Origin: Candidatus Eiseniibacteriota bacterium
Lineage (GTDB): Bacteria > Joyebacterota > Joyebacteria > Joyebacterales > Joyebacteraceae
Assembly: GCA_030630395.1 (NCBI GenBank)
Contig: DAOVNE010000014.1
Coordinates: 1 to 12,950 of the forward strand
Direction of reading: 5' to 3'
Length of the DNA: 12,950 nt
The position numbers were made by a program, and so were the translations under genes. Below the pieces are notes generated by a model, which was not told where the DNA came from, searched no databases, and saw only the letters and a program-made list of their open reading frames with translations. Positions 1-12,950 of this stretch are shown piece after piece. Numbering within the stretch: the stretch's first letter is position 1; every line of letters starts with the position of its first letter.

Positions 1-844
1 ATGCTATCTCACCGAGCTCCCAACGGCTGAAGCCCATCCATTCGATGGCGTCCTGAACGCCCTCGTCGTTCAGCCTGACGGCCCAGTCGAAGACGTCGCG
101 CATGGCGGCCTTGGCATCCGCCGTCTGGCCCTGGAGACGGATCACATGGGCAACCGAGTAGTCGGCTATGAGCCTCGGCAGATTGCGCTCACCCATGTAG
201 TGATACACACGTGCCTTCTCGAGTGCGTCGCGAGCCTCGTCGTAGCGCTCAGCTTCTACGTAGTTCCAGCCGAGGTTGTTCCAGAGCGGTCCCAGCCATT
301 TCGTCAGTTCGCCGGACTCGGCCATGGCGATGGCCTTTTCGGACCACTCGAACCGTTCCTCCGGATCGCCCGTGATCGCGGCCATGTGGGCCGCGTCGAT
401 CGCGCGACTCCACAGCTCGTGCGCCTCGCAGTAGTCGAACATCGCTCTGAAGGTGGCCGTCGCCGTTGGGTTGTCGCCGTCCTTCCACTCGAAGCGACCG
501 CGCACTCCGATGTAGCGAGACCATCCGAGTGCATCGCCTTCGGTAGCCTTCGCCGCCGCTCTGTCCAGCCACGGCCGTCCGGTCTCGCCGTCATCCTGGA
601 TGAGGTACGAGCGTGCCCGCATCGATGCCGCCTCGACGAACGCTGACACGTCTCCCGCGGTCTCGGCTTCGTTGGCTATGGCCTCGAACAGAACCCCGGC
701 GTCGGCATACTGGCCGCCGCGGAACGTCTGATCGGCCTCGTCGAGACGCTCGGCGAAGACGCTCTCCTCCGCGGTGGGGGAGCACCCAACAAACGCGAAT
801 GCGGCCGTGAGTACGACCAACGAGGTTAGAAGAAGGGGGTTCAT
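1..844 (-). CDS. TPR-containing lipoprotein, 3' end beyond the left edge
   Basis: The open frame starts at the ATG at 844 and stays open for 281 codons to the window edge, so the stop lies outside. A strong Shine-Dalgarno (GGGAGGA, about six bases upstream) supports the start. Residues 1-20 are a hydrophobic signal segment ending FVGC, a lipobox with Cys21 as the likely lipidated residue, so the mature protein is probably membrane-anchored in the periplasm. The rest is helical. Residues 186-219 match the TPR pattern well (Trp, Leu-Gly-x-x-Tyr, Tyr-x-x-Ala, Ala-Leu-x-Lys-Ala), and weaker TPR-like stretches lie near 31-62 and 227-258. TPR lipoproteins usually act as scaffolds or assembly factors; nothing here identifies a partner. 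The gene diverges from pckA and has its own promoter. Confident as a gene, not in its role. Confidence 0.85.
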   Translation of the reverse strand, partial: MNPLLLTSLVVLTAAFAFVGCSPTAEESVFAERLDEADQTFRGGQYADAGVLFEAIANEAETAGDVSAFVEAASMRARSYLIQDDGETGRPWLDRAAAKATEGDALGWSRYIGVRGRFEWKDGDNPTATATFRAMFDYCEAHELWSRAIDAAHMAAITGDPEERFEWSEKAIAMAESGELTKWLGPLWNNLGWNYVEAERYDEARDALEKARVYHYMGERNLPRLIADYSVAHVIRLQGQTADAKAAMRDVFDWAVRLNDEGVQDAIEWMGFSRWELGEIA

Positions 845-893
845 CGTTATCCTCCCGTGGAGCAGGTTAGACGGTGACAGGCGATTCAACACT

Positions 894-922
894 ACTATCG
901 TGTCATCCACGTTCCGTGTCAA
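894..922 (-). promoter_or_regulatory. Sigma70-type promoter for the TPR lipoprotein gene
   Basis: Read on the minus strand, a perfect TTGACA (922-917) is followed after exactly 17 bases by GATAGT (899-894), which matches the -10 consensus at four of six positions. Transcription would begin near 887, giving a leader of about 43 bases before the ATG at 844. Assigned by sequence only. Confidence 0.65.
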
Positions 923-1288
923 CCTCGCCTGCGCGCCGGGATCCTGAGCGATTGGCCCCTCGGAGCCCATGCGTTCAACGCCTGGAGGGGCCTAATTGTC
1001 CAACAGATCGAGCACAGCAAGCATACGGGGAGTCACGCAAGTTACCATGGACCGGAGTGATCCGAGCTACATGGGGGGATAACGACGTCGTGGCTCCCCG
1101 TGCACATTCATTATCGATCAGAACCATGAGAGCCCGGGCCTGTTGCTCGGGCTTTCGTGCTTCCAATCGCTCTTCTGGCAGCCTATCATAGAGGTTCATT
1201 GAGCTGGCTGTTTGCTGAAAACACGAGTGTTTTTGTGCCTTCGACGTGCATCGGAGGCCGGTCTCTCAATCGACCAGGAGAGGGAGCG
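923..1288. other. Non-coding stretch with inverted repeats upstream of pckA
   Basis: I see no convincing protein gene here; the open frames present lack ribosome binding sites and recognisable sequence. The stretch is rich in potential RNA structure. GGCCCCTC (954-961) pairs perfectly with GAGGGGCC (985-992), enclosing a smaller GCGTT/AACGC repeat (971-981). A ten-base palindrome, ACGACGTCGT (1082-1091), sits between GGGGA (1075-1079) and TCCCC (1095-1099). A 15-pair hairpin follows at 1125-1159. The region could be a small RNA, a long pckA leader, or spacer. No tmRNA, SRP RNA, RNase P or tRNA signature was recognised. A weak promoter-like pair for pckA may be TTCCAA and TATCAT, with the latter just before 1190, but it is not convincing. 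Confidence 0.4.
1125..1159 (+). terminator. Terminator-like GC-rich hairpin upstream of pckA
   Basis: AGCCCGGGC (1131-1139) pairs with GCTCGGGCT (1145-1153) around a five-base loop with one G-T wobble. The stem extends outward to 1125/1159 with two more wobbles. The inner hairpin followed by TT looks like a short intrinsic terminator in a GC-rich genome, but the T run is only three bases counting the last base of the stem. No plus-strand gene precedes it, so it would end an unrecognised transcript or act as an attenuator in the pckA leader. Confidence 0.4.
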
Positions 1289-2938
1289 ATGACTTTTCAG
1301 GAGAAGCTTGCCGCACTGCTCGAGAAGCGTTCCAATGTCAAGGCGAACATACCGCGAGCGGAGATGATCCGCGACGCCGTCGCGCGCCGCGAGGCGATCC
1401 CAAGCGCGTGTGGCGCGCTCGCAACGTGGACACCTACAGATTCGAACGGCCGGAGTCCGAAGGACACCTACATCGTGAAGCGTCCGGAGAGCCAGGATAC
1501 GATCGACTGGACGAGTCCCAACAACATCCCGCTTGCTCCCGAGACGTTCGACATGCTGCTTGAGGATTCGCTGGCGACGCTGGCCGAGGTCGAGACCGTA
1601 TACGTGACCGATCGCGTAGTCGGAGCCGACTCCAAGTACGCGCTCCCGGTGCACACGATCGCCGACCAAGCCCTTTCAGCGCTTTTTACAGACAACATGT
1701 TCCGTCCGTGGTCGGATGAGATCGTGGCGACGACGTGTTTCAAGGATCGGCACTTCACGCTCGTCGCACTTCCGTACGACAAGCTCGATCCCGCCAGGTA
1801 CGAGGGGAAACTCCGCGTGGATCCGCGGATCGGTGGCACCTCAACGATGGCCGTTGCCATTGACGCGGACCGCCGGATCGGTGTCGTCTACGGGTCCGCG
1901 TACGGCGGTAGTATCAAGAAGCTCATCTTCACGGTCATGAACTACATCCTCCCGGCTGAGGGGATCCTTCCCATTCATTGCAGTGCGAACGAGGGCCCCG
2001 ATGGAAGGAGTGCGTTGCTCCTGGGTCTCTCCGGCACGGGCAAGACCACGCTCTCGGCCGATGCATCACGCGCGCTTCTTGGCGACGACGAGCACGGGTG
2101 GAGCGATGAGGGCATAGCGAACTTCGAGAACGGCTGCTATGCGAAGCTGATCGATCTCGATCCTGTGAAGGAGCCCGAGATCACGAGCGCCTGTTTTCAT
2201 GAGGACGAGGTGGAGAAGCACGGGGCGATCATTGAGAACGCGATGATGTACCCGTGGGGCTCGTTTGATCTGTTTGACTCTCGCCTGACTCCCAACTCGC
2301 GTGGCTCGTACCCGCTCAGGTACCTGTCGAACACCAAGGAGACATCGACGGCCGGCCATCCGGCCACCATCCTGTTCCTTACCGCCGACGCGAACGGAGT
2401 GATCCCGCCGGTCTCGAAGCTTACCCGCGAGCAGGCGATGCTCTGGTTCATCATGGGCTACACGAGCAAGCTGGCCGGAACGGAGACAGGCATCACCGAG
2501 CCCGTGAGCACGTTCTCGCGTTTCTTCGGAGAGCCATTCATGCCGAGGAACCCAGAGGACTACGCTTCACTGTTGGGAGAGAAGATGGAGGAGCACGGTA
2601 CACAGGTCTTCCTCGTCAACACCGGGTGGAGTGGTGGTCCGTATGGGGTCGGTTCCAGAATAGACCTCCCGATCACGAGACGCATGGTGAACGCGGCCCT
2701 CTCGGGTGAACTCGATGGTGTCGAGTGCGAGATCGATCCTTACTTCAAGGTAGCGGTCCCGAAGAGCTGCCCCGGTGTGGATGCGGCCATTCTGAAGCCT
2801 GTGAATACGTGGGACGATCCGAAGGCGTTTGACGAGCGGGCGAAGAAGCTCGCTGCCGATTTCGCCGCGCACTATGACAAGGCGTACGGTAGTGCGGGTA
2901 TCGACGCAGCCGTTGCCGCGGAGTGTCCCGGGAAGTAG
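1289..2938 (+). CDS. pckA: Phosphoenolpyruvate carboxykinase (ATP)
   Basis: This cytoplasmic enzyme interconverts oxaloacetate plus ATP with PEP plus ADP and CO2, linking the TCA cycle to gluconeogenesis. The 549-residue length is normal for the ATP-dependent family. The sequence shows the substrate-binding RSPKD motif (Arg55), a Lys-Lys pair at 210-211 in a YGGSIKK context, the metal-ligand region LPIHCSANEG (His230), the kinase-1a P-loop GLSGTGKTTLS (246-256) and the kinase-2 motif GDDEHGW (265-271). The P-loop and GDDEHGW are the ATP type rather than the GTP type. The ATG at 1289 follows GGAGAGGGAG and begins at the usual N terminus. An in-frame extension back to 1157 would start inside the terminator-like hairpin and has no homology-like content. 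The gene stands alone with its own terminator, so it is probably monocistronic. Confidence 0.97.
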   Translation: MTFQEKLAALLEKRSNVKANIPRAEMIRDAVARREAIPSACGALATWTPTDSNGRSPKDTYIVKRPESQDTIDWTSPNNIPLAPETFDMLLEDSLATLAEVETVYVTDRVVGADSKYALPVHTIADQALSALFTDNMFRPWSDEIVATTCFKDRHFTLVALPYDKLDPARYEGKLRVDPRIGGTSTMAVAIDADRRIGVVYGSAYGGSIKKLIFTVMNYILPAEGILPIHCSANEGPDGRSALLLGLSGTGKTTLSADASRALLGDDEHGWSDEGIANFENGCYAKLIDLDPVKEPEITSACFHEDEVEKHGAIIENAMMYPWGSFDLFDSRLTPNSRGSYPLRYLSNTKETSTAGHPATILFLTADANGVIPPVSKLTREQAMLWFIMGYTSKLAGTETGITEPVSTFSRFFGEPFMPRNPEDYASLLGEKMEEHGTQVFLVNTGWSGGPYGVGSRIDLPITRRMVNAALSGELDGVECEIDPYFKVAVPKSCPGVDAAILKPVNTWDDPKAFDERAKKLAADFAAHYDKAYGSAGIDAAVAAECPGK

Positions 2939-2980
2939 GTGGGACCTTAAGTAACCACCGAACGATGTAGCTATTGGAAG

Positions 2981-3017
2981 CGCCGTGCTCATAGGATAAG
3001 AGTGCGGCGTTTCTCTT
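2981..3017 (+). terminator. Intrinsic terminator of pckA
   Basis: CGCCGTGCTC (2981-2990) pairs with GAGTGCGGCG (3000-3009) over ten positions, including two G-T wobbles, around a nine-base loop. TTTCTCTT follows directly. It sits 42 bases after the pckA stop and before the convergent pseudouridine synthase gene, as expected for a transcript end. Confidence 0.75.
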
Positions 3018-3070
3018 GGACGCCGGGTATGCCACTACAGTCCCGGTGCATCATCACAGTACGTGCTGTG

Positions 3071-4051
3071 TCATTGCGATGCTGGGTCTTTCGTCAGGAG
3101 GCGGTGAGCATCGATGAAATCCGCGATGTCCGCCGGGAGAGGTGCGATGAGCTCGAGCCGCTCGCCGGTGCGAGGGTGCTCAAACGCAATGCTCGCGTGA
3201 TGGAGCGCGTGACGGGGAAGGACGAGATGAGCTAGGACCTCCGGTGACTCCGGGTCCTCCACGAGCTTCCGCAGGAGCGTCGCGGGCAGCCCGTAGGTCT
3301 TGTCACCGATGATCGGATGACCTGTGGACTCCAGATGGACGCGGATCTGATTCGTGCGGCCCGTGTGCGGTCGGGCCTCGACGACGCTGAACTCCTGCTC
3401 GCCCTGCAGGCGCTCTATCACCCTCACGCTCGTCCTCGCCGCCTTGCCATTCCTCCTGTCTATGATCGACCGCGGGATCGGGTGCTGCTTCCCGATTCGT
3501 CCGAGCGGAGCATCGATCTCGAATGCGACATCGCTCGGGCATCCACGCACGATAGCCAGGTAGGTCTTCGAGACGGCTCCTCCCGCAAACGCGGCCGAGA
3601 TCGCTCGCGCCGCTTCGACGTTTCTCGTGAGAATCACAAGGCCGCTCGTCTCCCGGTCGAGGCGATGAGCGAGATTGAGGTCCTTACCGAGATCGTCTCT
3701 AAGCCTCGCGATGAGCGTGTTCCTGATGAACTTCCCGCTTGCATGGACGGGGATGTTCCCCGATTTCGAAACCACCAGGATGTCATCGTCGGTGTAGATG
3801 ATGTCGTAGGCGAAGTCGACCGTGGGCTCGATGATCTCGATCGTGTACTCGATCTCATCATCGGTATCCACGACATCCTCTGCTCCGGCCGTGCGTCCGT
3901 TCAGCCGGATCTTCCCGGTCTCGATTCGCGTCTCCCAGAGTTCACGCGGGAGATAGCGGAACCTCTCGCACAGGAACTCCAGGACGGTCCGCCCGCGGTA
4001 GGGGTGGTGGACCTTCGTTCGGAGATGAATCGGTTCTGGGCGCTCAGTCAT
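3071..4051 (-). CDS. RluA-family 23S rRNA/tRNA pseudouridine synthase with S4 domain
   Basis: The protein isomerises specific uridines to pseudouridine in structured RNA. An S4 RNA-binding domain occupies about residues 19-65 (YRGRTVLEFL to the IRLNG region). The catalytic domain carries the family motif HRLDRETSGL, with Asp132 as the catalytic aspartate, and further family features such as KTYLAIVRG and GRTNQIRVHL. The 326-residue length fits the RluC/RluD/YlyB-type enzymes. The ATG at 4051 is chosen because GGGG precedes it and the protein then begins just before the S4 domain. In-frame ATGs at 4060 and 4126 are possible, but the latter would overlap the divergent promoter region. Which RNA and site it modifies cannot be read from the sequence. 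It is convergent with pckA and divergent from the DtxR-family gene. Confidence 0.93.
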   Translation of the reverse strand: MTERPEPIHLRTKVHHPYRGRTVLEFLCERFRYLPRELWETRIETGKIRLNGRTAGAEDVVDTDDEIEYTIEIIEPTVDFAYDIIYTDDDILVVSKSGNIPVHASGKFIRNTLIARLRDDLGKDLNLAHRLDRETSGLVILTRNVEAARAISAAFAGGAVSKTYLAIVRGCPSDVAFEIDAPLGRIGKQHPIPRSIIDRRNGKAARTSVRVIERLQGEQEFSVVEARPHTGRTNQIRVHLESTGHPIIGDKTYGLPATLLRKLVEDPESPEVLAHLVLPRHALHHASIAFEHPRTGERLELIAPLPADIADFIDAHRLLTKDPASQ

Positions 4052-4119
4052 AATCCCCATACTACACCGGCTTCGCAGAAGGAGACCATATAAGAGCGAA
4101 GAGAAGCACGAGATTTCTG

Positions 4120-4148
4120 TTGACACGGAATTAGGCCACCCTTATAAT
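4120..4148 (+). promoter_or_regulatory. Consensus sigma70 promoter of the metal-uptake cluster
   Basis: TTGACA (4120-4125) and TATAAT (4143-4148) are both perfect consensus hexamers separated by the optimal 17 bases. Transcription would start near 4155, some 33 bases before the GTG of the DtxR-family gene. Such a strong promoter implies tight repression, consistent with the operator-like sites lying on it. Confidence 0.9.
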
Positions 4149-4154
4149 ATTAGG
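4129..4154. promoter_or_regulatory. Candidate DtxR-type operator overlapping the -10 element
   Basis: Three half-site-like elements alternate in orientation: TTAGG (4131-4135), CCTTA (4140-4144) and TTAGG (4150-4154). The first two form an imperfect inverted repeat with a four-base gap. The second and third form the interrupted palindrome CCTTATA-A-TATTAGG (4140-4154, six of seven arm positions paired), which contains the -10 box. Half-site spacing is about 9-10 bases. TTAGG/CCTAA half-sites are known from DtxR and IdeR operators, so autoregulation by the downstream repressor is inferred. AT-rich -10 sequences can look palindromic by chance. Confidence 0.5.
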
Positions 4155-4187
4155 TGTGTATAGATTTTGCCCTGAATAGGAGATTCC

Positions 4188-4718
4188 GTGGAGACAGGAC
4201 GACTGAGCGAGAGCCTGGAAGACTACCTGGAGGCCATCCTCGCCGTTCTCGATGAGAAACAGGCCGTCAGGGCGAAGGACATAGCCAAGCGGCTCAGCGT
4301 GAGCAGCCCATCTGTGACCGGCGCTCTTCACGCGCTCAGCGAGAAGAACCTGATCAACTACGCTCCCTACGACGTCATCACGCTGACTTCGGAGGGAGAG
4401 GCGATCGCGCGGGATGTCACCGGGCGGCACCATGTCCTTCAAGAGTTCTTCACAAAGGTGCTTGGTGTGAATGAAGCGGAGGCAAGTGAGGCTGCTTGCA
4501 GGATGGAACACTCGCTCTCGCCGGATCTGATGAAGAGACTGGTGGGATTTCTCGCGTGCGTTGAGAACTACACAGACGGCGATACCGACTGGATCTGCGG
4601 GGCGGCGAAGTCGTACGGGGAGGTCAACGATCCCGACGCCTGCCGGGAGTGCGTGGAGAAATGTATCGAGAGTCACAGGAAGGAACCGAGGGAGAGTGAG
4701 GATTCCGATGGCGCGTGA
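4188..4718 (+). CDS. DtxR/MntR-family metal-dependent transcriptional repressor
   Basis: This is a cytoplasmic regulator that binds operator DNA when loaded with Fe(II) or Mn(II). The N-terminal winged helix-turn-helix spans about residues 8-75 (recognition region SVSSPSVTGALHAL) and the dimerisation/metal domain about 76-125. Aligned by eye to MntR, the predicted ligands are Asp12, Glu15, His81, Cys104, Glu107 and His108. The ACRMEH motif resembles DtxR/IdeR, whereas the EDYLEAI start resembles MntR. The C-terminal tail has cysteines at 124, 137, 152, 155 and 159 and lacks a recognisable SH3-like domain; at 176 residues it is longer than MntR and shorter than DtxR. The GTG start has AGGAGA just upstream. 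Promoter overlap suggests autoregulation, and the downstream receptor and chelatase genes are the likely regulon. Iron is favoured over manganese because of Cys104 and the neighbours. Confidence 0.9.
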   Translation: METGRLSESLEDYLEAILAVLDEKQAVRAKDIAKRLSVSSPSVTGALHALSEKNLINYAPYDVITLTSEGEAIARDVTGRHHVLQEFFTKVLGVNEAEASEAACRMEHSLSPDLMKRLVGFLACVENYTDGDTDWICGAAKSYGEVNDPDACRECVEKCIESHRKEPRESEDSDGA

Positions 4719-4820
4719 CCGCGATCTGCAGGAGAAGAGCGATCCTTTTTTTTGCATCCATAGTTAGGGAGAGCGAACTTTATGCGGGCGGCCAAACTTC
4801 AAGAGAGAGAGGAGACCGTC
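4719..4820 (+). other. Short gap between the repressor and receptor genes
   Basis: This 102-base gap holds a run of eight T (4746-4753) without a good preceding stem (only AGGA/TCCT, four pairs), so it is not a convincing terminator. One isolated TTAGG (4764-4768) resembles the half-sites at the promoter. I see no good second promoter, so read-through from 4120-4148 into the receptor gene is likely. Confidence 0.4.
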
Positions 4821-7241
4821 GTGAGAAATGTCATATTGATAGCCGTTGTAGCTGCAATGCTGCTGATTGCTGGAGCAGGACAAGCTCAAGAGCTGGGTGG
4901 TCTGACCGGGAGCGTCGTTGACACCGAGACCGGTGAGCCGCTGGCGTTCGTCAATGTGAGCGTCAGGGGGACGGTGTCGGGAGGCATCAGCGGCCGGGAC
5001 GGGAAATTCTACATCCAGAACATCATGGCAGGAACGCACGAGGTGGCCGTTTCCATGATGGGCTATGAGACTGTCATCAGGACGGTAACGGTTAGACCCG
5101 ACAGAACAGTGGAGATCGATTTCGAACTCAAGGAGAGCGTCATAGCGATGGGGGAAGTCGTGGTCACCGCGACGAGAACCCCACGCTACTTGAAGGACGT
5201 TCCCATTCGAACGGAGGTCGTGACCCGGCAGTCGTTCAAGGATGCCGGCGCCTGCGACATCTACGAGGCGCTCGAGGGCGTCGCGGGTGTGCGCGTTGAG
5301 CAGCAGTGTCAGTTCTGCAACTTCAGCCAGGTGAGAATGCAGGGGCTTGGGCCCGATCATACGCAGATTCTTGTCGACGGCCAGCCCGTCTACTCCGGCC
5401 TCGCGAGCGTCTACGGATTGCAGCAGACAGGTACAAGCTCTATCGAGCGGATCGAGGTGGTGAAAGGGGCGGGCTCGGCACTGCACGGAAGCGGAGCGAT
5501 TGCGGGCGCCATCAATTTGGTGACACGGGTTCCTTCAGCACGTCCGGAGGCGGGGATAGGGATCGAGTTCGGAGAGCACGAGTCGCGGCGCTATGACTTC
5601 TCTGCCTCTCAGAGGTTCGGAAACGTTGGGCTGGTTCTCTTCGCCCAGAAGAACTCGGGTGGTGTCATCGACGAGACTGGAGACGGCATCGGCCGCGAGA
5701 GCGTCTACGAGCCCGACCGCATATCCGATCGGGTCAGGACCGATCTCACGAGCGGTGGGTTCAACGCGATCGTAAGTGATGTTCTTGGCATGGACCAGTT
5801 CGTGATCAGGGGGCGAGCGCTCCACGAGCTCAGACAGGGAGGTGAGCTCTACAACAACGACTACGATGTTCCCGAGGACGTCTATGAGAACCCCTTCACG
5901 CCGGGAACGGAGCGGATCGTCACGGACAGACATGAGATCGATGTGTCGGTCAAGAAACAGTTTGAGAGTGGGAATGATGTCGGCGTCTCGTTCTCTTATG
6001 CGCACCACGACAGGAATGCGACGAACGACACGTTCATCACTGACTACGAAAGCGTGAACGGTGAACTTGCACCGATCGATCTCCTGAGACCTTACCTGGC
6101 ATCAGAGGACATCTACGCCGCGAACATAAACTACTCACATCCTGTTGGCGGGAAGCACCGGCTGCTCCTTGGAGGACAGCTTGCGCACAACCGGCTCGAG
6201 GAATCGGGCATGTATGTCGTCGTCGAGGAAGAGGACGAGAACTACGGCGAGGCGTACAGATCCACGAGTGAGAAGCACTCGACGGATGTCGGTCTGTACA
6301 TCCAGGATGAGTTCGCTCCCAGCAAGGCACTCGAGTTCGTTCTGGGTGTCCGGTACGACAAGCACGACTCGGAGGACAAGTTTCGGGGATCCGGCAGCGT
6401 GGCTCCACAGGGTGTGCCGACGGTCGAGTACTCCGAATCGTCTGTAAGCCCCCGTGCCGCCGTACGGTTCAGCCCGACACCCGGCCTGGCGCTTCGCGCC
6501 AGCGTGGGTACCGGCTTCCGTGTTCCCTACGGGTTTTCGGAGGATCTTCACCTGTGCAGTGGATCGCCTCGTGTCTGGAAGGGAGGCAATCTAATGCCGG
6601 AGAAATCCGTAAGCTACAGTGTTTCTGCCGACTACTACGCCACGCGGTACAACATCGGCGTCTCGCTCTACCGGACCGATGTTCGCGGCAAGATCGGGCT
6701 GGTCGATGCGGGTGAGGAGGCGTCCGCTCGAGGGTACGACTACGAGTGGGAGAACATCGACGATGCGTTCGTGCAGGGACTCGAGTTGAGTGGCCGCTAC
6801 GAGGCAACCAACAACCTGGTCCTCGATGGTCACGCAACGCTCGCGTCCGGCGAGTACGAGAACGTCCGGGAGGACTGGATAGGAACCGAGTACGAAGACA
6901 ACAGCATCTACGTGTCGCGACTGCCGCGATACTCCGCCGGTCTCAAGGCTGAGTACAGACCCACCGGTTGGAGTGCTGTGCTGAATGCGGAGCTTAAGGG
7001 TCCGCTCTACATCGACTACTACGCTGATGGGGAGGATCCTACGAAGATCAAAGAAACGGAGACCTACGTCATCGTTAACGCGCGTGTTGCGAAACATCTG
7101 ACAGAAGACCTGTCGCTCTTCGTGGGGAGTCACAACCTCACCGACTACGTGCAGGAGGAGAAGCACACTGATGACGCGGCCTTCATGTACGCTCCGGTCT
7201 ACGGGCGGATCTTCTACGGAGGAGTAGCAATCGACTTCTAG
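4821..7241 (+). CDS. TonB-dependent outer-membrane receptor, HmuR-like plug
   Basis: The protein is an energy-coupled outer-membrane importer of metal complexes. The GTG at 4821 is preferred: GGAGA lies five bases upstream and the protein then begins with a clean signal peptide (residues 1-22, cleavage near GQA-QE). An in-frame ATG at 4782 would put a charged extension before it. Order: carboxypeptidase-regulatory-like domain (about 27-105), a TonB-box-like EVVVTATR (112-119), plug (about 125-235, with ILVDGQPVYSGL and GSGAIAGAINLVT), then a barrel ending in a C-terminal Phe. The 806-residue length is typical. A CQFC motif (Cys163, Cys166) in the plug and GTGFRVPYGFSEDLH in the barrel resemble, from memory, receptors of the haem/HmuR type in Bacteroidota, but the ligand is unproven. 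Its place between a DtxR-type repressor and a chelatase homologue supports uptake of haem, another metallo-tetrapyrrole or a siderophore. TonB and ExbBD are not encoded here. Confidence 0.93.
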   Translation: MRNVILIAVVAAMLLIAGAGQAQELGGLTGSVVDTETGEPLAFVNVSVRGTVSGGISGRDGKFYIQNIMAGTHEVAVSMMGYETVIRTVTVRPDRTVEIDFELKESVIAMGEVVVTATRTPRYLKDVPIRTEVVTRQSFKDAGACDIYEALEGVAGVRVEQQCQFCNFSQVRMQGLGPDHTQILVDGQPVYSGLASVYGLQQTGTSSIERIEVVKGAGSALHGSGAIAGAINLVTRVPSARPEAGIGIEFGEHESRRYDFSASQRFGNVGLVLFAQKNSGGVIDETGDGIGRESVYEPDRISDRVRTDLTSGGFNAIVSDVLGMDQFVIRGRALHELRQGGELYNNDYDVPEDVYENPFTPGTERIVTDRHEIDVSVKKQFESGNDVGVSFSYAHHDRNATNDTFITDYESVNGELAPIDLLRPYLASEDIYAANINYSHPVGGKHRLLLGGQLAHNRLEESGMYVVVEEEDENYGEAYRSTSEKHSTDVGLYIQDEFAPSKALEFVLGVRYDKHDSEDKFRGSGSVAPQGVPTVEYSESSVSPRAAVRFSPTPGLALRASVGTGFRVPYGFSEDLHLCSGSPRVWKGGNLMPEKSVSYSVSADYYATRYNIGVSLYRTDVRGKIGLVDAGEEASARGYDYEWENIDDAFVQGLELSGRYEATNNLVLDGHATLASGEYENVREDWIGTEYEDNSIYVSRLPRYSAGLKAEYRPTGWSAVLNAELKGPLYIDYYADGEDPTKIKETETYVIVNARVAKHLTEDLSLFVGSHNLTDYVQEEKHTDDAAFMYAPVYGRIFYGGVAIDF

Positions 7242-7252
7242 GACGCAGGGGG

Positions 7253-7287
7253 TTCCGACGAACGGAAGCCGGGCGCTGCATCCCGGC
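7253..7287 (+). other. Two abutting hairpins between receptor and chelatase genes
   Basis: TTCCG (7253-7257) pairs with CGGAA (7263-7267), and directly after it GCCGGG (7268-7273) pairs with CCCGGC (7282-7287). No T run follows, so they are unlikely to terminate transcription. They could stabilise the upstream mRNA or set the expression ratio of the two genes. No cobalamin-riboswitch box was recognised. Confidence 0.4.
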
Positions 7288-7316
7288 GAATCCACAGTCC
7301 GAAGGGAGCACAGATC

Positions 7317-8273
7317 ATGCTGTTTCAATCAGATTCGGGGCGTTGGGGGCGGTTTCTGAGGGGCACCGGCCTCATCATTGTCGCGGCGCTCATCATTGTC
7401 GCACTGACATCAGCCGCCGCCGCGACAGGTGAGAGGCTTGGGTTGGTGCTGGTCGCTCACGGCGCCCCGATGCCGTCGTGGAATGCGCCGGTCCTCGCTC
7501 TGGAGGACGAGGTCAGAGGTCTTCTGGCGGAGGCCGGCGACAATCCGTTCGATGAGGTTCGTGTTGCGCTCATGGAATTCACCGAGCCTTCGATTCACAC
7601 TGTGATCGGGGATCTCGAGGAGGCGGGGATAGACAGGGCCTACGTGCTTCCGCTCTTCATTGCTCCGTCGGGTCACTCGCTGTTCGACATTCCCGCGATC
7701 CTTGGACTCTATAGCGATCCTGCGATGCTGGACGAACTGAGGGGTGAGGGGACAGAGATCGTGGGGACCGACATTCGGCTCACCGTCGGTCCGACCCTCA
7801 ACTACGGTGACATTCTTAGGACGATCATGCTCGATCGCGTTAGGGAGATGTCCGTGGATCCCGCGTTGGAGAGCCTCGTTCTCCTGGCACACGGAGACGC
7901 GTCTACCGAACCTGTGTGGGACGCACTATGCAACGAGATCGGTGTGTACGTCTGCGCGCACACCGGCATCGAGTACTTCGACCATGCGCTCGTAGAGGTC
8001 GGCCAGTCGTTTGCGACAGAAGGACTGGGAGCCATAGCTCAAGCCACCGAGCACGCCGAGCGAACTCTCGTCGTCGGTCTGTACCTGTCGATGGGAGTCG
8101 AGAATATGGCAAAGAGCGCCATGGTCCGGTCCGGAATGATGACGATCAGTGCGGAGGATGTTCTCAAGGACGAGGATATCCGCTACGGCGGGCAGGGGGT
8201 TCTGCCCGATCCGCGGGTGGCCGCGTGGGCTGTCGAGCGGGCCGGGGAGTGGCTTCTGGATCAGGGGGACTGA
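7317..8273 (+). CDS. Exported CbiX/SirB-like tetrapyrrole chelatase homologue
   Basis: The family inserts Co(II) or Fe(II) into sirohydrochlorin in the cytoplasm. This 318-residue protein instead begins with basic residues (GRWGRFLR), a hydrophobic core (about 19-31) and Ala-rich cleavage region near AAAA-TG (33-37), so it is predicted to be periplasmic or anchored in the inner membrane. Two chelatase-like halves are visible. Half one has LVLVAHGAP (His48), MEFTEPS (Glu87/Glu90) and LPLFIAPSGH (His120), which fits the His-Glu-His site of SirB/CbiX. Half two has LVLLAHGDA (His192), but the second His position reads GVEN, so it looks non-catalytic. SirB is likewise two-domain with its active site in the N-terminal half. 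Cys205 and Cys213 lie in half two. The ATG follows GGGAG. Location after the receptor gene suggests work on an imported tetrapyrrole; metal insertion, metal removal or simple binding all remain possible. Confidence 0.85.
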   Translation: MLFQSDSGRWGRFLRGTGLIIVAALIIVALTSAAAATGERLGLVLVAHGAPMPSWNAPVLALEDEVRGLLAEAGDNPFDEVRVALMEFTEPSIHTVIGDLEEAGIDRAYVLPLFIAPSGHSLFDIPAILGLYSDPAMLDELRGEGTEIVGTDIRLTVGPTLNYGDILRTIMLDRVREMSVDPALESLVLLAHGDASTEPVWDALCNEIGVYVCAHTGIEYFDHALVEVGQSFATEGLGAIAQATEHAERTLVVGLYLSMGVENMAKSAMVRSGMMTISAEDVLKDEDIRYGGQGVLPDPRVAAWAVERAGEWLLDQGD

Positions 8274-8311
8274 CCGAGAGCGCCGCGTGATCTGGCGAAC
8301 GGACCCCGGGC

Positions 8312-8340
8312 TTGACAGGAAGGCACACTGACGCTAGTAT
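8312..8340 (+). promoter_or_regulatory. Sigma70-type promoter of the tetR-RND operon
   Basis: A perfect TTGACA (8312-8317) is followed after 17 bases by TAGTAT (8335-8340), four of six matches to the -10 consensus. The predicted start, near 8347, falls at the edge of the palindromic operator, so repressor binding would block initiation. Confidence 0.8.
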
Positions 8341-8348
8341 TGTATAGA

Positions 8349-8366
8349 GAACAACATTCGTTGTTC
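8349..8366. promoter_or_regulatory. Palindromic TetR operator at the tetR transcription start
   Basis: GAACAAC (8349-8355) and GTTGTTC (8360-8366) are a perfect seven-base inverted repeat separated by ATTC. Size, symmetry and position just after the -10 box are typical of an autoregulated TetR-family site. A related sequence recurs before the LolA-like gene at 9064, which supports a real regulatory motif. Confidence 0.8.
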
Positions 8367-8409
8367 GATGTGGAGCCATCACATTGGGACTTCAGGCGGG
8401 CGACACGGC

Positions 8410-9045
8410 ATGCAGGTCAAGAAAGAAGAGATAGAGAATAGGATTCTCGAAGGCGCCCGGCGCGAGTTCGTCGCAAAGGGTTTCTCCGGGGCAAGCATGC
8501 GGGCGATCGCGAAGTGGGCGGGGACGTCGCTCAGCAACGTCTACAACTACTTCGAAAGCAAGGATCGGCTCTTCCGTGCCGTTGTCGGCCCGACGGTCGA
8601 CGGACTCAGAGCCGTCGTGATACGCGAGACGTCGCCCTTGCTCCAGGATCTCGATGAGCATGGCTTCAAGCGATTCGAACGGCAGAAGGAGATGATGAGA
8701 ACCATCGTCGCCTACGTGGATGAGCACCGCGAGGACCTCAAGCTCATCTTCTTCCAATCGGAGGGTTCATCTCTGAGCGGGTTCCACGACGAGCTGATAG
8801 AGGAGCACACGCGAGGGCACGCGCGGTGTTTCCGGAACCTCGGCAAGAGAGACCCGGAGGCCGGAGCGGCGGGCCTCGTGTCAGAGTTCTTCATTCACAA
8901 CACGAGCGGGTTCTTCGTCAATACGTTTGTTGAGATGCTCATGCACGATGTTCCACTGAAGGACATGGAACGATACGCGGATGAGCTTGTGAGGTTCTCG
9001 TACCCGGGGATGAGGGCGGTAGTGGGCTTGGGCAAGGAAGAGTAG
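8410..9045 (+). CDS. TetR/AcrR-family transcriptional repressor
   Basis: The product is a ligand-responsive DNA-binding repressor. The N-terminal TetR domain spans about residues 8-55, with the helix-turn-helix at about 28-47 (SMRAIAKWAGTSLSNVYNYF) and the following FESKDRLFRAVV typical of the family. The C-terminal ligand and dimer domain is variable and does not identify the inducer. The 211-residue length is normal. The ATG at 8410 is preferred, with AGGCGGG upstream; an in-frame ATG at 8368 has no ribosome binding site and would begin right at the operator. The gene is followed by the LolA-like, barrel and RND genes in the same direction, separated by short gaps, so it most likely represses its own operon. 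Confidence 0.92.
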   Translation: MQVKKEEIENRILEGARREFVAKGFSGASMRAIAKWAGTSLSNVYNYFESKDRLFRAVVGPTVDGLRAVVIRETSPLLQDLDEHGFKRFERQKEMMRTIVAYVDEHREDLKLIFFQSEGSSLSGFHDELIEEHTRGHARCFRNLGKRDPEAGAAGLVSEFFIHNTSGFFVNTFVEMLMHDVPLKDMERYADELVRFSYPGMRAVVGLGKEE

Positions 9046-9063
9046 TTTTTTTGGAACAGGACT

Positions 9064-9080
9064 GAACAATGTTCGTTTTT
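9064..9080. promoter_or_regulatory. Second, related TetR operator before the LolA-like gene
   Basis: GAACAATGTTCGTT (9064-9077) matches the first 14 bases of the operator at 8349 at 12 positions; the distal half-site is degraded (TTT in place of GTTC). Inside it, GAACA-A-TGTTC is itself a perfect small palindrome (9064-9074). It lies 18 bases before the ATG at 9098. I could not find a good promoter beside it, so it may act as a roadblock or accompany a non-consensus promoter. Confidence 0.55.
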
Positions 9081-9097
9081 GAGACAGGAGGTCCGAC

Positions 9098-9898
9098 ATG
9101 TGTCACCGAGCCATCAGCACGCTGCTCCTGATCCTGGTCGCGACTGCGAGTGCCGCGACCGCGAGCACAGGCGTCGCCGCTGACCTGACCGGCCGCGACA
9201 TCGCCGTGATGGTGGATGAGAGACCGGATGGGGACGACAGGAAGGGAACGATGACGCTGACCCTCACCAACAGCAGAGGGAAGACGCGGGTCCGGAGTGT
9301 GACGTCCTTCGACAAGGACTACGGACTGGATTCCAGGAGCCTCATGTACTTCGAGGCTCCGGCGGATGTGAAGGGAACGGCTTTCCTTCAGTTCGAGTAT
9401 GAGGACCCGGAGAGGCAGGACGACAAGTGGCTCTATATGCCGGCACTCAGAAGAACCCGCCGGATCGCAGGGTCTTCGAAGAACGAGTACTTCATGGGCA
9501 CCGACTTCACCTACGACGACCTCGGTGACCGTAGCGTGGATGAGGACGTGTATGAACTCCTGCGCGAGGAGGAGTTCGGCGGACACGAGTGCTGGGTGCT
9601 CGAGGCCGTACCCGTGGATGAGGACTACATGTACTCAAGGGTCGTGCGCTGGATTCGCAAGGACGTTCTCCTGCCTGCTCGTGTCGAGTTCTACGAGAGG
9701 CAAGGGAAACTCCTCAAGATTCTTACTGTCGTAGATGTGCGCGAAGTCGATGGCTTCTGGAGCATATACGAGATGGAGATGGAGAACGTTCTTGAGGAAC
9801 ATCGGACGAGGATCGCGTACGAGGACCTGCACTACAACATTGGCCTATCAGACGATCTATTCAGGGTTTCCACACTTGAGAGGGGAAGGATCCAATGA
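9098..9898 (+). CDS. Periplasmic LolA-like protein (outer membrane lipoprotein-sorting family)
   Basis: Residues 1-28 form a signal peptide (hydrophobic core LLLILVATASAA, cleavage near VAA-DL), predicting a periplasmic protein of 266 residues in total. Recognisable features of the LolA-like family found next to RND pumps are KGTAFLQFEY (92-101), the WLYMPALRRTRRI stretch (111-123) and YFMGTDFTYDDL (131-142). The fold is a half-barrel that can shield a lipid or another hydrophobic ligand. The family name reflects similarity to LolA, but this gene is not the housekeeping lolA by context: it is followed by a barrel and an RND transporter, so it probably shuttles that pump's substrate. The ATG follows GGAGG by seven bases. 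Its stop overlaps the next start as ATGA, indicating translational coupling. The ligand is unknown. Confidence 0.87.
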   Translation: MCHRAISTLLLILVATASAATASTGVAADLTGRDIAVMVDERPDGDDRKGTMTLTLTNSRGKTRVRSVTSFDKDYGLDSRSLMYFEAPADVKGTAFLQFEYEDPERQDDKWLYMPALRRTRRIAGSSKNEYFMGTDFTYDDLGDRSVDEDVYELLREEEFGGHECWVLEAVPVDEDYMYSRVVRWIRKDVLLPARVEFYERQGKLLKILTVVDVREVDGFWSIYEMEMENVLEEHRTRIAYEDLHYNIGLSDDLFRVSTLERGRIQ

Positions 9899-11196
9899 TC
9901 ATCCGGATCACAGCACCGCCCGCAGTCACGGCGATCATCCGGATCACAACATCGGCCGCAGTCACGGCGGTCCAGGTTCTGGTCGTCTCCCTTCTTCTGT
10001 TCTCGGCAGGCGATGCTCCGGCGGCCGAATTCGACACACACGGCTTCGTCGATTCGCACTACGGCGTGCGGCTCGGGGAACCGCACGACTTCATCACTTC
10101 CAGGACCCGGGCGCGCATCGAGAGCTGGATGTGCGAGGGAGAGACTTGGGCGTACCTGAGCGTGAATGCCACAGAAGACGGCGTGGTTACCGGGGAGAAG
10201 GGAATAGAGCTCCGCGAGGCGTTCGTCGAGTACGTGGCGGATAGCTGGGACTTGAGGGTCGGACGCCAGATCATTGTGTGGGGGAAGGCGGACGGGGTGG
10301 CCATAACGGACATCATCTGCCCGCGCGACTACGCGGAGTTTTTCGCAGCGGAGTATGACGATACCCGGATACCGGTAGATGCGGCGAAGTGGCGATACCT
10401 CGGGAACAGTTTCGACCTGGAGTTCATCTGGCTGCCGCGGTTCATCCCGGCCACGTTCCCGCAGCAGGGAAGCCCGTGGTTCAGAGAGACCGGGTTTCCC
10501 GCCGGCGTGCACGTCGAGTACCAGGCGGTGTCGGAGCCGGAGCTCAATCTGGAGAACGGTGAGTTCGCCGCCAAGGCAAGCATCTATACGTCGGCAGTCG
10601 ACCTCGCGGTCTCCTGCTTCCGCACGTGGCACGATACTCCCACGGCGTATCGGGAAGTGGTGTCACAAGGCGACTCCGTTCGGGTCAGCTTCCGTCCGGA
10701 GTATGAGCGCACGGTCCTTTATGGAGCGGAGCTGTCAAAGCCGTGGGGTGATGTCGTTCTCCGCGCGGAGGCAGCTTACTTCACCGGGCTCTGTTTCGAG
10801 CCCGCGGACGAGCTTTCGGAAGAGATGTTCGAAAGAGACGTGCTCAAGTGGATGGTTGGGGCGGACTGGAGTCCCGGAGGTAACTGGATTGTCACTGTGC
10901 AGTTCGTCGATGGCTTCATCCTCGACTACGAGGAGGCGATCGCGGACGACGAGCACTCGATGCTCGTTACCACGAGCGTCTCGAAGACGTTCCTCAGAGA
11001 GAGCCTTGAGCTGTCCGGAATAACGTACCTCGGCATGAGTGACAACGACATGTACGCGCGGATGGCAGCTGACTATGAGCTTGCGGATGCACTCCATCTC
11101 TCGGTGGGCGTGGATGTCCTCAGCGGGGATGGTGGACGATTCGGCGCGTACGACGACAACGATCAGATCTGGGTGAGGGCCAAGTACAGCTTCTGA
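9895..11196 (+). CDS. Outer-membrane beta-barrel protein, DUF1302-like
   Basis: The 433-residue protein has an N-terminal signal sequence (hydrophobic core about 25-37, cleavage near APAA-EF at 44), alternating polar/hydrophobic strands throughout, and ends in the aromatic-rich WVRAKYSF with a terminal Phe, as outer-membrane barrels do. The motif GRQIIVWGKADGVAITDI (123-140) followed by CPRDYAEF resembles the DUF1302-type barrels that neighbour RND pumps; this is recognition by eye. The ATG overlaps the previous stop and is the only ATG, GTG or TTG in frame before the hydrophobic core. The signal peptide n-region is unusually long because of a 36-base tandem duplication. It is probably the outer-membrane partner or acceptor for the RND system; porin, channel or lipid-acceptor roles cannot be told apart. 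Confidence 0.85.
   Translation: MIIRITAPPAVTAIIRITTSAAVTAVQVLVVSLLLFSAGDAPAAEFDTHGFVDSHYGVRLGEPHDFITSRTRARIESWMCEGETWAYLSVNATEDGVVTGEKGIELREAFVEYVADSWDLRVGRQIIVWGKADGVAITDIICPRDYAEFFAAEYDDTRIPVDAAKWRYLGNSFDLEFIWLPRFIPATFPQQGSPWFRETGFPAGVHVEYQAVSEPELNLENGEFAAKASIYTSAVDLAVSCFRTWHDTPTAYREVVSQGDSVRVSFRPEYERTVLYGAELSKPWGDVVLRAEAAYFTGLCFEPADELSEEMFERDVLKWMVGADWSPGGNWIVTVQFVDGFILDYEEAIADDEHSMLVTTSVSKTFLRESLELSGITYLGMSDNDMYARMAADYELADALHLSVGVDVLSGDGGRFGAYDDNDQIWVRAKYSF
9898..9969 (+). repeat. 36-base tandem duplication in the barrel gene's signal-peptide coding region
   Basis: Unit one (9898-9933) and unit two (9934-9969) abut and are identical at 33 of 36 positions. Each encodes 12 residues, IIRITAPPAVTA and IIRITTSAAVTA, so the frame is preserved. 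It lies directly after the start codon and lengthens the signal-peptide n-region. Confidence 0.95.
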
Positions 11197-11213
11197 GCTA
11201 CGGGAGGAAGGCC

Positions 11214-12950
11214 ATGTCGGAACGAATAGAGAGGATCAACGCGTGGTTCAAGAGACGATCGAAAGAGATCATCCGCTTCCGGTGGTTGATCATAATCACA
11301 GTCATTGTTCTCAATGTCCTGTCGATACCGGGTGTGATGCGTGTTGAGCAGGACAACTCGATGGAGGGGTGGCTGCTCGAAGGGGACCCGCTTCGTCTCG
11401 CGCGCGACGAGTTCGAGGAGATCTTCGGCAACAACGACTACGTGCTCGTGCTGGTTGAAGCCGATGATGTCTTCTCCAGTGAGACACTGGCGATGATGCG
11501 AAGGCTTGGGGACGATCTTGAGGAAGAAGTTCCGTTCGCCGACAAGGTGACATCGATCGCACACTTGGATTTCACGGAGGGTACCGAGGACGGGATTGTC
11601 GTGGATGAGCTTGTTCCCGAGGAGATCCCGACGGATCCTGCTCTTCTCGCGGAGATAAGAGCGCGCGCGATGACGAAGCCGTTTCTTGTCGATCGCCTCT
11701 TCTCGCGGGACGGTACGCAGGCGGCCGTTCTTCTCCGGCTTCACAAGTACGCGGACGTGAACGGGAGTGAGGCGCGGGGTGAGGTTCTGGTCGGGGCGAA
11801 GGTGAATGAGATCCTTGCCAGGGAGGAGTACCGCGATCACGGACTGCTGTCCGGGGGGATGCCGATCTTCTCTGCCGAGAAGGAGCTCTGGTTCAAGCGA
11901 GAGGGGGCCAGGCTCTTCTCGCTCACGGTTCTGGTCATGATGATCGTGCTCGGAGTGTCGCTTCGGTCGATCAGGGCGATGTTCGCCCCCATCTTCACGG
12001 CGCTCTCCGCCATTCTGTGGGTCTTCGGCATCATGGGCTACACGGGCGTGAAGATGATTCCGATGATCGCCACGATCCCGGTCATGCTCCTGGTCGTTAT
12101 CTCAGTCGGATACTCGGTTCACATCGTCTCCTTCTTCAAGCAGCACTTCCTTGCTACCGGGAATCGAAGGGAGTCGGTGGCGCATGCTCTCGAGCACACG
12201 GGCTGGCCCGTTCTCTTCACGGCATTCACAACCGTGCTGGGTTTCCTGTCGTTCACCGTCGTCGAGATCTCGGCTATCAGATGGCTGGGGTTCGCAGCCT
12301 CGGGTCTGGTGCTCGCCGCGTATCCCCTAGTCATGGCGCTGACGCCGGCCCTTCTCAGGTTTGGAAAGGACCGCGAGCCGGATCCTGATTTCGCTCGCGG
12401 AGGGGGCGGGCGGATGGAAACCGGGCTGGTGAGGTTGGGTGAGTGGGTCCGGGGGCGCGGACGCGTCATCATCGTCGTCTTCACTGTTGTAACGATCGCG
12501 GCCGCTATCTCAATGACGGGTCTCGTTGTTGATACGGATTCACTGAAGGTGATGGGAAGGCGGGTTCCCTTTGTAGGGAAGATCTTCTACATCGCCGATC
12601 AGATTGGATCGCTCTACGCGTACGACGTGACACTGGAGTTCCCGGAAGATGGGATGGCGAAGGACCCCGAGACGCTGCGGAAGCTGGACGCGCTCGCTCG
12701 GGAACTCGAGGAGACGGAGATTGTGAAGAGGACGATGTCCATCACGGACATCGTCAAGGACCTGAACCAGGTACTCAATGACGGGGATCCCGCGCACTAC
12801 ACGATTGGCGAAGAGCGTGATCTCGTGGCGCAGCAGCTGCTCCTGTATGAGATGTCGGGCGGTTCGGATCAGGAGAACTGGGTCGACTACGACTATCGTG
12901 TCTTGCGGCTGAACGTCGAACTGCGCCGGTTCTCCTCGACGCAGGTGGAA
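11214..12950 (+). CDS. RND/MMPL-family transporter, C-terminal part beyond the right edge
   Basis: The frame is open for 579 codons to the window edge. The protein is an inner-membrane RND-superfamily exporter. Visible parts: TM1 (about 22-40), a periplasmic domain (about 41-230), TM2-TM6 (about 234-252, 257-277, 282-306, 333-351, 357-381), a cytoplasmic loop, TM7 (about 417-438) and the start of the second periplasmic domain. This is the duplicated RND layout, with most of the second half missing. TM4 reads SVGYSVHIVSFF where many MMPL proteins carry an acidic residue before the Tyr. The ATG follows GGGAGGAAGG, 17 bases after the barrel gene's stop, so it is in the same operon. Together with the LolA-like protein and the barrel it probably exports a lipid or hydrophobic compound; the substrate is not evident. 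HpnN-like roles cannot be excluded, but no hopanoid gene is nearby. Confidence 0.92.
   Translation, partial: MSERIERINAWFKRRSKEIIRFRWLIIITVIVLNVLSIPGVMRVEQDNSMEGWLLEGDPLRLARDEFEEIFGNNDYVLVLVEADDVFSSETLAMMRRLGDDLEEEVPFADKVTSIAHLDFTEGTEDGIVVDELVPEEIPTDPALLAEIRARAMTKPFLVDRLFSRDGTQAAVLLRLHKYADVNGSEARGEVLVGAKVNEILAREEYRDHGLLSGGMPIFSAEKELWFKREGARLFSLTVLVMMIVLGVSLRSIRAMFAPIFTALSAILWVFGIMGYTGVKMIPMIATIPVMLLVVISVGYSVHIVSFFKQHFLATGNRRESVAHALEHTGWPVLFTAFTTVLGFLSFTVVEISAIRWLGFAASGLVLAAYPLVMALTPALLRFGKDREPDPDFARGGGGRMETGLVRLGEWVRGRGRVIIVVFTVVTIAAAISMTGLVVDTDSLKVMGRRVPFVGKIFYIADQIGSLYAYDVTLEFPEDGMAKDPETLRKLDALARELEETEIVKRTMSITDIVKDLNQVLNDGDPAHYTIGEERDLVAQQLLLYEMSGGSDQENWVDYDYRVLRLNVELRRFSSTQVE

Follow-up and report, generated by a model that had tools for sequence, protein, structure and literature searches.

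A putatively metal-regulated TonB-dependent receptor and a predicted exported class II chelatase in Candidatus Eiseniibacteriota: a putative system for the removal of iron from imported haem

The stretch of DNA analyzed here, referred to as the window, comprises all 12,950 nucleotides at positions 1 to 12,950 (forward strand) of contig DAOVNE010000014.1 from Candidatus Eiseniibacteriota bacterium assembly GCA_030630395.1, a genome of 1.83 Mb that is 74% complete. Between positions 4120 and 8273 it carries the genes of a DtxR/MntR-type repressor, a TonB-dependent receptor and a CbiX/SirB-like protein bearing a signal-peptide-like lead, all in one direction behind one consensus promoter. An initial annotation had described the locus in these terms; its coordinates for the promoter and the three genes were correct, and each component that it named was borne out by Pfam matches and a promoter scan. 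The unit and its flanks are arranged as follows.

3071-4126, minus strand: pseudouridine synthase gene, left flank of the three-gene unit
4120-4148, plus strand: sigma-70-type promoter TTGACA-17-TATAAT, 12/12 consensus, conserved before the regulator in loci L021, L022, L023, L026 and L027
4142-4154, plus strand: TTATAATATTAGG, in which TTAGG comes directly after the -10 box; candidate half-site of an operator for the DtxR protein (promoter alignment)
4188-4718, plus strand: DtxR/MntR-type metal-dependent repressor, GTG start (Pfam, PDB relatives, metal-ligand columns)
4821-7241, plus strand (open reading frame readable from 4782): TonB-dependent receptor with N-terminal CarbopepD_reg domain (Pfam and relatives' starts)
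7317-8273, plus strand: two-lobed class II chelatase (CbiX/SirB-like) of 318 amino acids, predicted exported, putative haem dechelatase (Pfam, fold, homologue alignment)
8312-8340, plus strand: promoter-like site TTGACA-17-TAGTAT before the TetR gene, 10/12, consensus match only
8368-9045: TetR gene, right flank of the three-gene unit

The repressor gene is separated by 63 bp from the receptor reading frame (102 bp from the likely receptor start at 4821) and the receptor by 75 bp from the chelatase, and a sequence scan found no terminator-like site on the plus strand between 4120 and 8273; we infer a single transcript, and the three-gene unit likely ends at the promoter-like site at 8312-8340. 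Rfam and tRNA scans of the window gave no matches. The promoter at 4120-4148 is the sole 12/12 site in the window, where the promoter scan found 4 sites against 3.3 expected; because such sites are not enriched as a class, it is credited on account of its conservation before the regulator in relatives, where 68 bases separate it from the regulator start in L021, L023 (both 12/12) and L022 (11/12), and 67 bases in L026 and L027 (11/12).

The repressor matches PF02742 (E 5e-18) and PF01325 (E 5e-14) above cut-off, covering the helix-turn-helix and the dimerisation/metal domain, and its nearest solved relatives are 8pvt (E 2e-17), annotated as a putative iron-dependent repressor, and Bacillus subtilis MntR 1on1 (E 8e-14). 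In an alignment with 1on1, residues D12, E15, H81, C104, E107 and H108 fall at metal-ligand columns, and all six are retained in 8/8 aligned regulators; we assume that these columns have ligand roles and take D12 to be an MntR-like Asp and C104 a DtxR-like Cys. The best NCBIfam matches are MntR models, below cut-off. Within the window's family the repressors also end in a Cys-rich tail (CR.C...C), less marked in L031 and L033, which possibly forms a further metal or Fe-S site.

A TAYAWTRTTAGG block upstream of the regulator and a TTAGG element directly after the -10 box are present in 8/8 aligned promoters, including those of L031 and L033. The TTATAATATTAGG/TTAGG element presumably resembles a DtxR box and is, from its position and conservation, a candidate operator of the DtxR-type repressor. 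When the 13-mer TTATAATRTTAGG was sought with at most one mismatch, 10 sites were found in seven genomes, one per genome at the unit promoter (no mismatch in 6/7 genomes, one in G001) and three elsewhere, each with one mismatch; the reversed pattern, a weak control, gave two matches. As the 13-mer lies mostly at the unit promoter, once per genome, the repressor would fit the role of a mainly local autoregulator. In G004 a further TTACAATGTTAGG site (L103 4850-4862, contig C50) lies approximately 370 bp before another TonB-dependent receptor gene, a possible second target of the regulator.

The receptor has Pfam matches to the plug (5e-23), the barrel (3e-45) and CarbopepD_reg_2 (7e-22), and its start is probably the GTG at 4821, which gives 806 amino acids as in L021, L022, L023 and L026, rather than the ATG at 4782. 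Its two best matches to NCBIfam models are the haem-receptor models TIGR01786 and TIGR01785, neither of which reaches its cut-off (144 bits against 324, and 136 against 317). Members of the receptor family share a CxxCN plug loop (near residue 176) and an FRxP...DLHLCSG loop (near residue 578; numbering from 4782), the latter, with its HLC, being present in 115/120 relatives among the matches listed; these loops could form a ligand site, and the His of the loop after the FRAP box may be relevant to haem.

In the chelatase the sole Pfam domain match is PF01903 CbiX (E 5e-12), and the protein belongs to a family of exported-type class II chelatases found mostly in metagenome-assembled genomes (MAGs), the closest records with the chelatase in a contig scan being Candidatus Eisenbacteria MAGs. 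Both alpha/beta lobes of the class II fold are present, matching CpfC, SirB, CbiK and FetB (which we take to be IhtB of Porphyromonas gingivalis) over approximately residues 37-318. Practically all of 160 aligned sequences retain H48, E87 and H120 in the catalytic lobe; H48 and H120 align to the His columns of CfbA, placing the His pair in the N-terminal lobe, E87 presumably has a role in the chelatase, and the second lobe lacks its second His, with SMG in place of GxH. The role of the catalytic His pair in class II chelatases is described in PMC7689651. Segments 144-217 or 140-217 of the CbiK Pfam model align, below cut-off, to the N-terminal lobe of three homologues.

A hydrophobic signal-like lead, called by a hydrophobicity rule rather than a trained signal-peptide predictor, is present in the window chelatase and in 114/118 homologues with the start motif, among the matches listed, and two of the four homologues with a "short lead" (P0005 and P0012) are artefacts of an earlier HGA. 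The lead of the window chelatase contains no Cys, and a lipobox-like site was seen by a simple motif in 1/118 of the homologues listed. Twelve weak CbiX matches served as a control for leads, a weak one in that most of them were read on the wrong strand: no lead was found in L009, L015, L016 and L017, and one was found in L012 (genome G061), a distant CbiX-like protein of 333 amino acids. Because this distant protein has a signal-like lead, exported class II chelatases may extend more widely than the window's family. In searches of open-licence PMC papers, no paper on the exported CbiX family was found among the matches and passages listed.

The chelatase family is present in 8/20 genomes of the window's phylum, and the order DtxR-receptor-chelatase recurs in six of these eight (G000, G001, G003, G004, G007 and G013); in G014 the DtxR and receptor genes share one 3.6-kb contig and a piece of the chelatase lies at the start of another. 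The receptor subtype occurs in 7/20 genomes, all among the eight with the chelatase. A chance gathering of the three genes was rejected, given the conservation of their order in relatives. A phage origin was also rejected: 22 pattern matches in viral contigs yielded no confirmed case, and the window shares its flanking genes at the PEPCK and RluA positions with L021-L023 (clusters 10 and 11) and with G002.

In other lineages, genes of iron and haem acquisition adjoin the chelatase. One scan of genome contigs gave 41 loci, of which the distant archaeal L061 was dropped and six belong to the window's family; in 21 of the remaining 34, a gene for a TonB receptor, Feo, Fur, DtxR, HmuY or ChaN lies within three genes of the chelatase (taxon names are those of the depositors). 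DtxR directly precedes the chelatase in L031 (Tariuqbacter) and L033 (LCP-89); in the latter, a receptor that has the plug loop of the window receptor is encoded four genes farther downstream. Both this loop and the FRxP...DLHLCSG loop are found in receptors next to the chelatase in two records, L045 (Bacteroidetes) and L057 (a further Eisenbacteria record). Among the most informative loci, the order is Fur-FeoA-chelatase-FeoB in two Zixibacteria records (L030 and L035), Fur-FeoA-FeoB-chelatase in L039, FeoAB-TonB-dependent receptor-HmuY-chelatase in L040 (Bacteroidales, G117) and FeoB-TonB-dependent receptor-chelatase in L057; HmuY is nearby in L045, L050, L051 and L056; L058 and L059, both Prevotella records, have ChaN nearby. 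A PF02421 match confirmed FeoB in each of the five Feo loci, and Pfam confirmed Fur, FeoA, HmuY and ChaN in representatives, the remaining loci being assigned by similarity. Marker genes made up 40/163 near genes (within three of the chelatase) versus 6/93 far genes.

Searches of the 20 phylum genomes, 13 of which have a completeness of 90% or more and a contamination of 5% or less, detected HemB in 0/20 (control genomes positive, 11/14), HemH in 0/20 (controls, 8/14) and the CobN model PF02514 in 0/20 (controls, 5/14). A cytochrome c assembly model, which presumably also covers related haem-handling proteins, was matched in 20/20. Haem auxotrophy with c-type cytochromes thus appears to be clade-wide, and because the cells seem to use haem without making it, the substrate of the chelatase is probably an imported ring. 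A cytoplasmic CbiX for B12 or siroheme synthesis was rejected, in view of the absence of HemB hits in these 20 genomes and the export-type lead. FeoB was found at E 5e-62 or better in 5/6 close relatives searched.

We suggest that the unit is metal regulated and that its exported chelatase would strip iron from imported haem, a reading that we hold with somewhat better than even confidence. Under iron scarcity the DtxR-type repressor would lose its metal and leave the site over the -10 box, allowing expression of the unit; the TonB-dependent receptor would import haem, or a metalloporphyrin like it, across the outer membrane to the periplasm; the exported CbiX-like enzyme would distort the ring and remove the metal through its H48/E87/H120 site, generating porphyrin and Fe(II); and FeoB would carry the released Fe(II) into the cytoplasm. 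Of the two directions of the reaction, removal is the more likely: the chelatase gene follows a DtxR-type repressor in the window and sits within Fur/Feo loci in other lineages, a placement that fits release of Fe(II) under iron shortage. The initial annotation had proposed an extracytoplasmic system handling the metal of a tetrapyrrole, and this broader interpretation is supported by the recurrence of the gene order in the phylum, by a signal-like lead that is general in the listed chelatase family and by the iron and haem genes that adjoin the chelatase in other lineages.

A number of observations weigh against removal of iron from haem by this unit. No haem-receptor model reached cut-off with the receptor, the source names of its family are generic and, among the matches listed, none is that of a haem receptor, and the receptor family is seemingly larger than the chelatase family (at least 1700 versus at least 277 matches). 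In G002, which is 100% complete, the chelatase gene comes immediately after DtxR, and a receptor of this subtype was not matched at E 1e-60; G100, one of the six relatives searched, has no strong FeoB (best, 3.6e-14); G006 has another, unrelated PF01903 match (a frame of 179 amino acids); and 12/20 phylum genomes are without the chelatase, yet all 20 match the cytochrome c assembly model, so the chelatase is accessory. Absence of HmuS is less firm than that of HemB, because the CobN control contained no genome shown to carry HmuS. A chelatase search at E 1e-3 recorded 20/98 genomes, but the 12 outside the window's family were weak (best, 3.3e-10), and at E 1e-20 the chelatase was found in 7/295 sampled genomes of G117's order, two of these being weak (about 1e-47). 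No marker lay within three genes of the chelatase in 13/34 loci (L025, L028, L029, L034, L037, L038, L041, L042, L043, L046, L048, L055 and L060), some of them cut by contig ends, and for TonB-dependent receptors the difference between near and far genes was borderline (17/163 versus 3/93; p 0.051). Marker sequences were taken from near genes, favoring near counts, and some of the 34 loci are related to one another rather than independent cases (a single genome carries both L034 and L044, L052-L054 are near relatives by sequence, and L030/L035 and L058/L059 are same-group pairs); we therefore give the identities of the adjoining genes more weight than the near/far ratio. Disruption of a cbiK gene in B. 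fragilis was without effect on the use of haem iron, according to unpublished data cited in PMC6460266.

The main rival is insertion of metal into scavenged porphyrin. Class II chelatases are best known for inserting metals, the fold of the window protein is that of such enzymes, and FetB, in the excerpt of PMC13402209, is reported to insert Mn into protoporphyrin; a periplasmic ferrochelatase that placed Fe(II) or another metal into metal-free porphyrin could provide haem for c-type cytochromes in a cell without HemH, in keeping with matches to the cytochrome c assembly model in every phylum genome and to HemH in none. It is made improbable by the 12 genomes that match that model and lack the chelatase, and the association with a DtxR-type repressor, FeoB or Fur suits release better than insertion. 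A different metal or ring, with Co, Ni, Mg, Zn or Mn removed from or exchanged in an imported tetrapyrrole (chlorophyll products, corrinoids or siroheme) under a manganese-type regulator, seems to us unlikely to about the same degree: the best NCBIfam matches of the repressor are to MntR models (below cut-off), D12 is presumably the MntR-type Asp, and the 25 NCBIfam receptor matches listed, siderophore, haem and B12 models included, are all below cut-off, whereas Fur, FeoA, FeoB, HmuY and ChaN are iron or haem genes, the best solved relative of the repressor is annotated as putatively iron dependent and C104 is, we assume, DtxR-like. Least probable is a noncatalytic periplasmic binder, with the chelatase fold serving to ferry haem or metal between the receptor and the inner membrane, as neighbors from haem-binding families (HmuY and ChaN) and the loss of the second His from the second lobe might indicate, since H48, E87 and H120 are retained almost without exception.

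Removal of iron from haem by this unit would follow a scheme that is known, that of a receptor plus an exported chelatase, with a distinct enzyme lineage. The nearest precedent, not named in the initial annotation, is the Iht system of P. gingivalis, in which the receptor IhtA accompanies the CbiK-like lipoprotein IhtB. Iht includes a binding protein and an ABC transporter (IhtC-E) that are absent from the window's unit, and IhtB is a putative lipoprotein, unlike a chelatase whose lead is without Cys. With residues 205-241 of FetB, in its C-terminal half, the profile segment that includes H120 gives a weak alignment (E 0.014), so the window chelatase and FetB seem to keep the His pair in opposite lobes. 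By sequence the closest relatives are SirB, CbiX and CfbA, through the N-terminal lobe (CfbA, E 9e-14; SirB, E 2e-5; family profile); these are cytoplasmic enzymes of cofactor synthesis, from which the window's family differs in its export-type lead and in a host without detectable HemB. Haem is also broken down anaerobically by the radical enzymes ChuW/HutW. The periplasmic cobaltochelatase CbiK of Desulfovibrio vulgaris is matched very weakly by the profile in its C-terminal half (residues 186-221; E 0.96); its catalytic His pair lies in the C-terminal lobe (PMC7689651), whereas that of the window chelatase is in the N-terminal lobe, and Desulfovibrio cbiK lies with B12 genes (excerpt of PMC545781, in which export is not discussed), in contrast to a phylum in which HemB was not found in 20 genomes.

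The HmuR-HmuS system of Bacteroidota shares the scheme, combining a TonB haem receptor with the dechelatase of the hmu operon, and HmuS is described as an NADH-dependent dechelatase for which direct evidence dates from 2025 (excerpt of PMC12583661). It is a large class I protein of the CobN/ChlH type, whereas the window chelatase shows CbiX only and no CobN-Mg_chel domain. In B. fragilis, relatives of HmuS (BtuS1/BtuS2) are predicted to be exported, haem iron is freed in the periplasm and its uptake requires FeoAB, the dechelatase then, in 2018, not yet being identified (excerpt of PMC6460266).

Found in Feo, HmuY and DtxR loci, this conserved class II chelatase with an export-type lead is a further candidate dechelatase, small and probably soluble. 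We tentatively propose, at a little short of even confidence, that HmuS is not the only kind of periplasmic haem dechelatase: a second family would consist of soluble SirB/CbiX-type class II chelatases operating in reverse, distributed among numerous lineages, most of them uncultured, coupled to the iron control that each has at its disposal (DtxR, Fur-Feo, HmuY or ChaN), and in this Eisenbacteria clade present in cells that make no tetrapyrrole. If this is true, it would show how uncultured lineages without haem synthesis could turn scavenged haem into iron and would extend a cofactor-synthesis fold to nutrient breakdown.

Other genes recur beside the chelatase. An FmdE-domain protein with an export-like lead and the motif GHVCxG is encoded within three genes of it in four loci (identified by Pfam in L036 and by similarity in the others):

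L033 8534-9307: FmdE-domain gene
L036 6895-7623: FmdE-domain gene
L038 2718-3530: FmdE-domain gene
L044 4626-5372: FmdE-domain gene

Flavodoxin and DUF2023 genes (L036 2740-3641) stand directly upstream of the chelatase, receptor and FmdE gene, and Fer4_5 proteins are encoded beside the chelatase in L032 and L039; the flavodoxin-DUF2023 pair and the Fer4_5 proteins could supply electrons. A ZIP-family metal transporter gene follows the chelatase in L038 (4453-5259). Downstream of the chelatase, LolA-like (PF17131) and DUF1302 genes occur in three lineages (window 8368-12950, L043 8530-13842 and L051 3684-5824), joined by TetR and MMPL genes in the window and, by eye, by TetR-like and MMPL-like genes in L043; the LolA-like, DUF1302 and MMPL genes possibly constitute a linked exporter of lipid or porphyrin.
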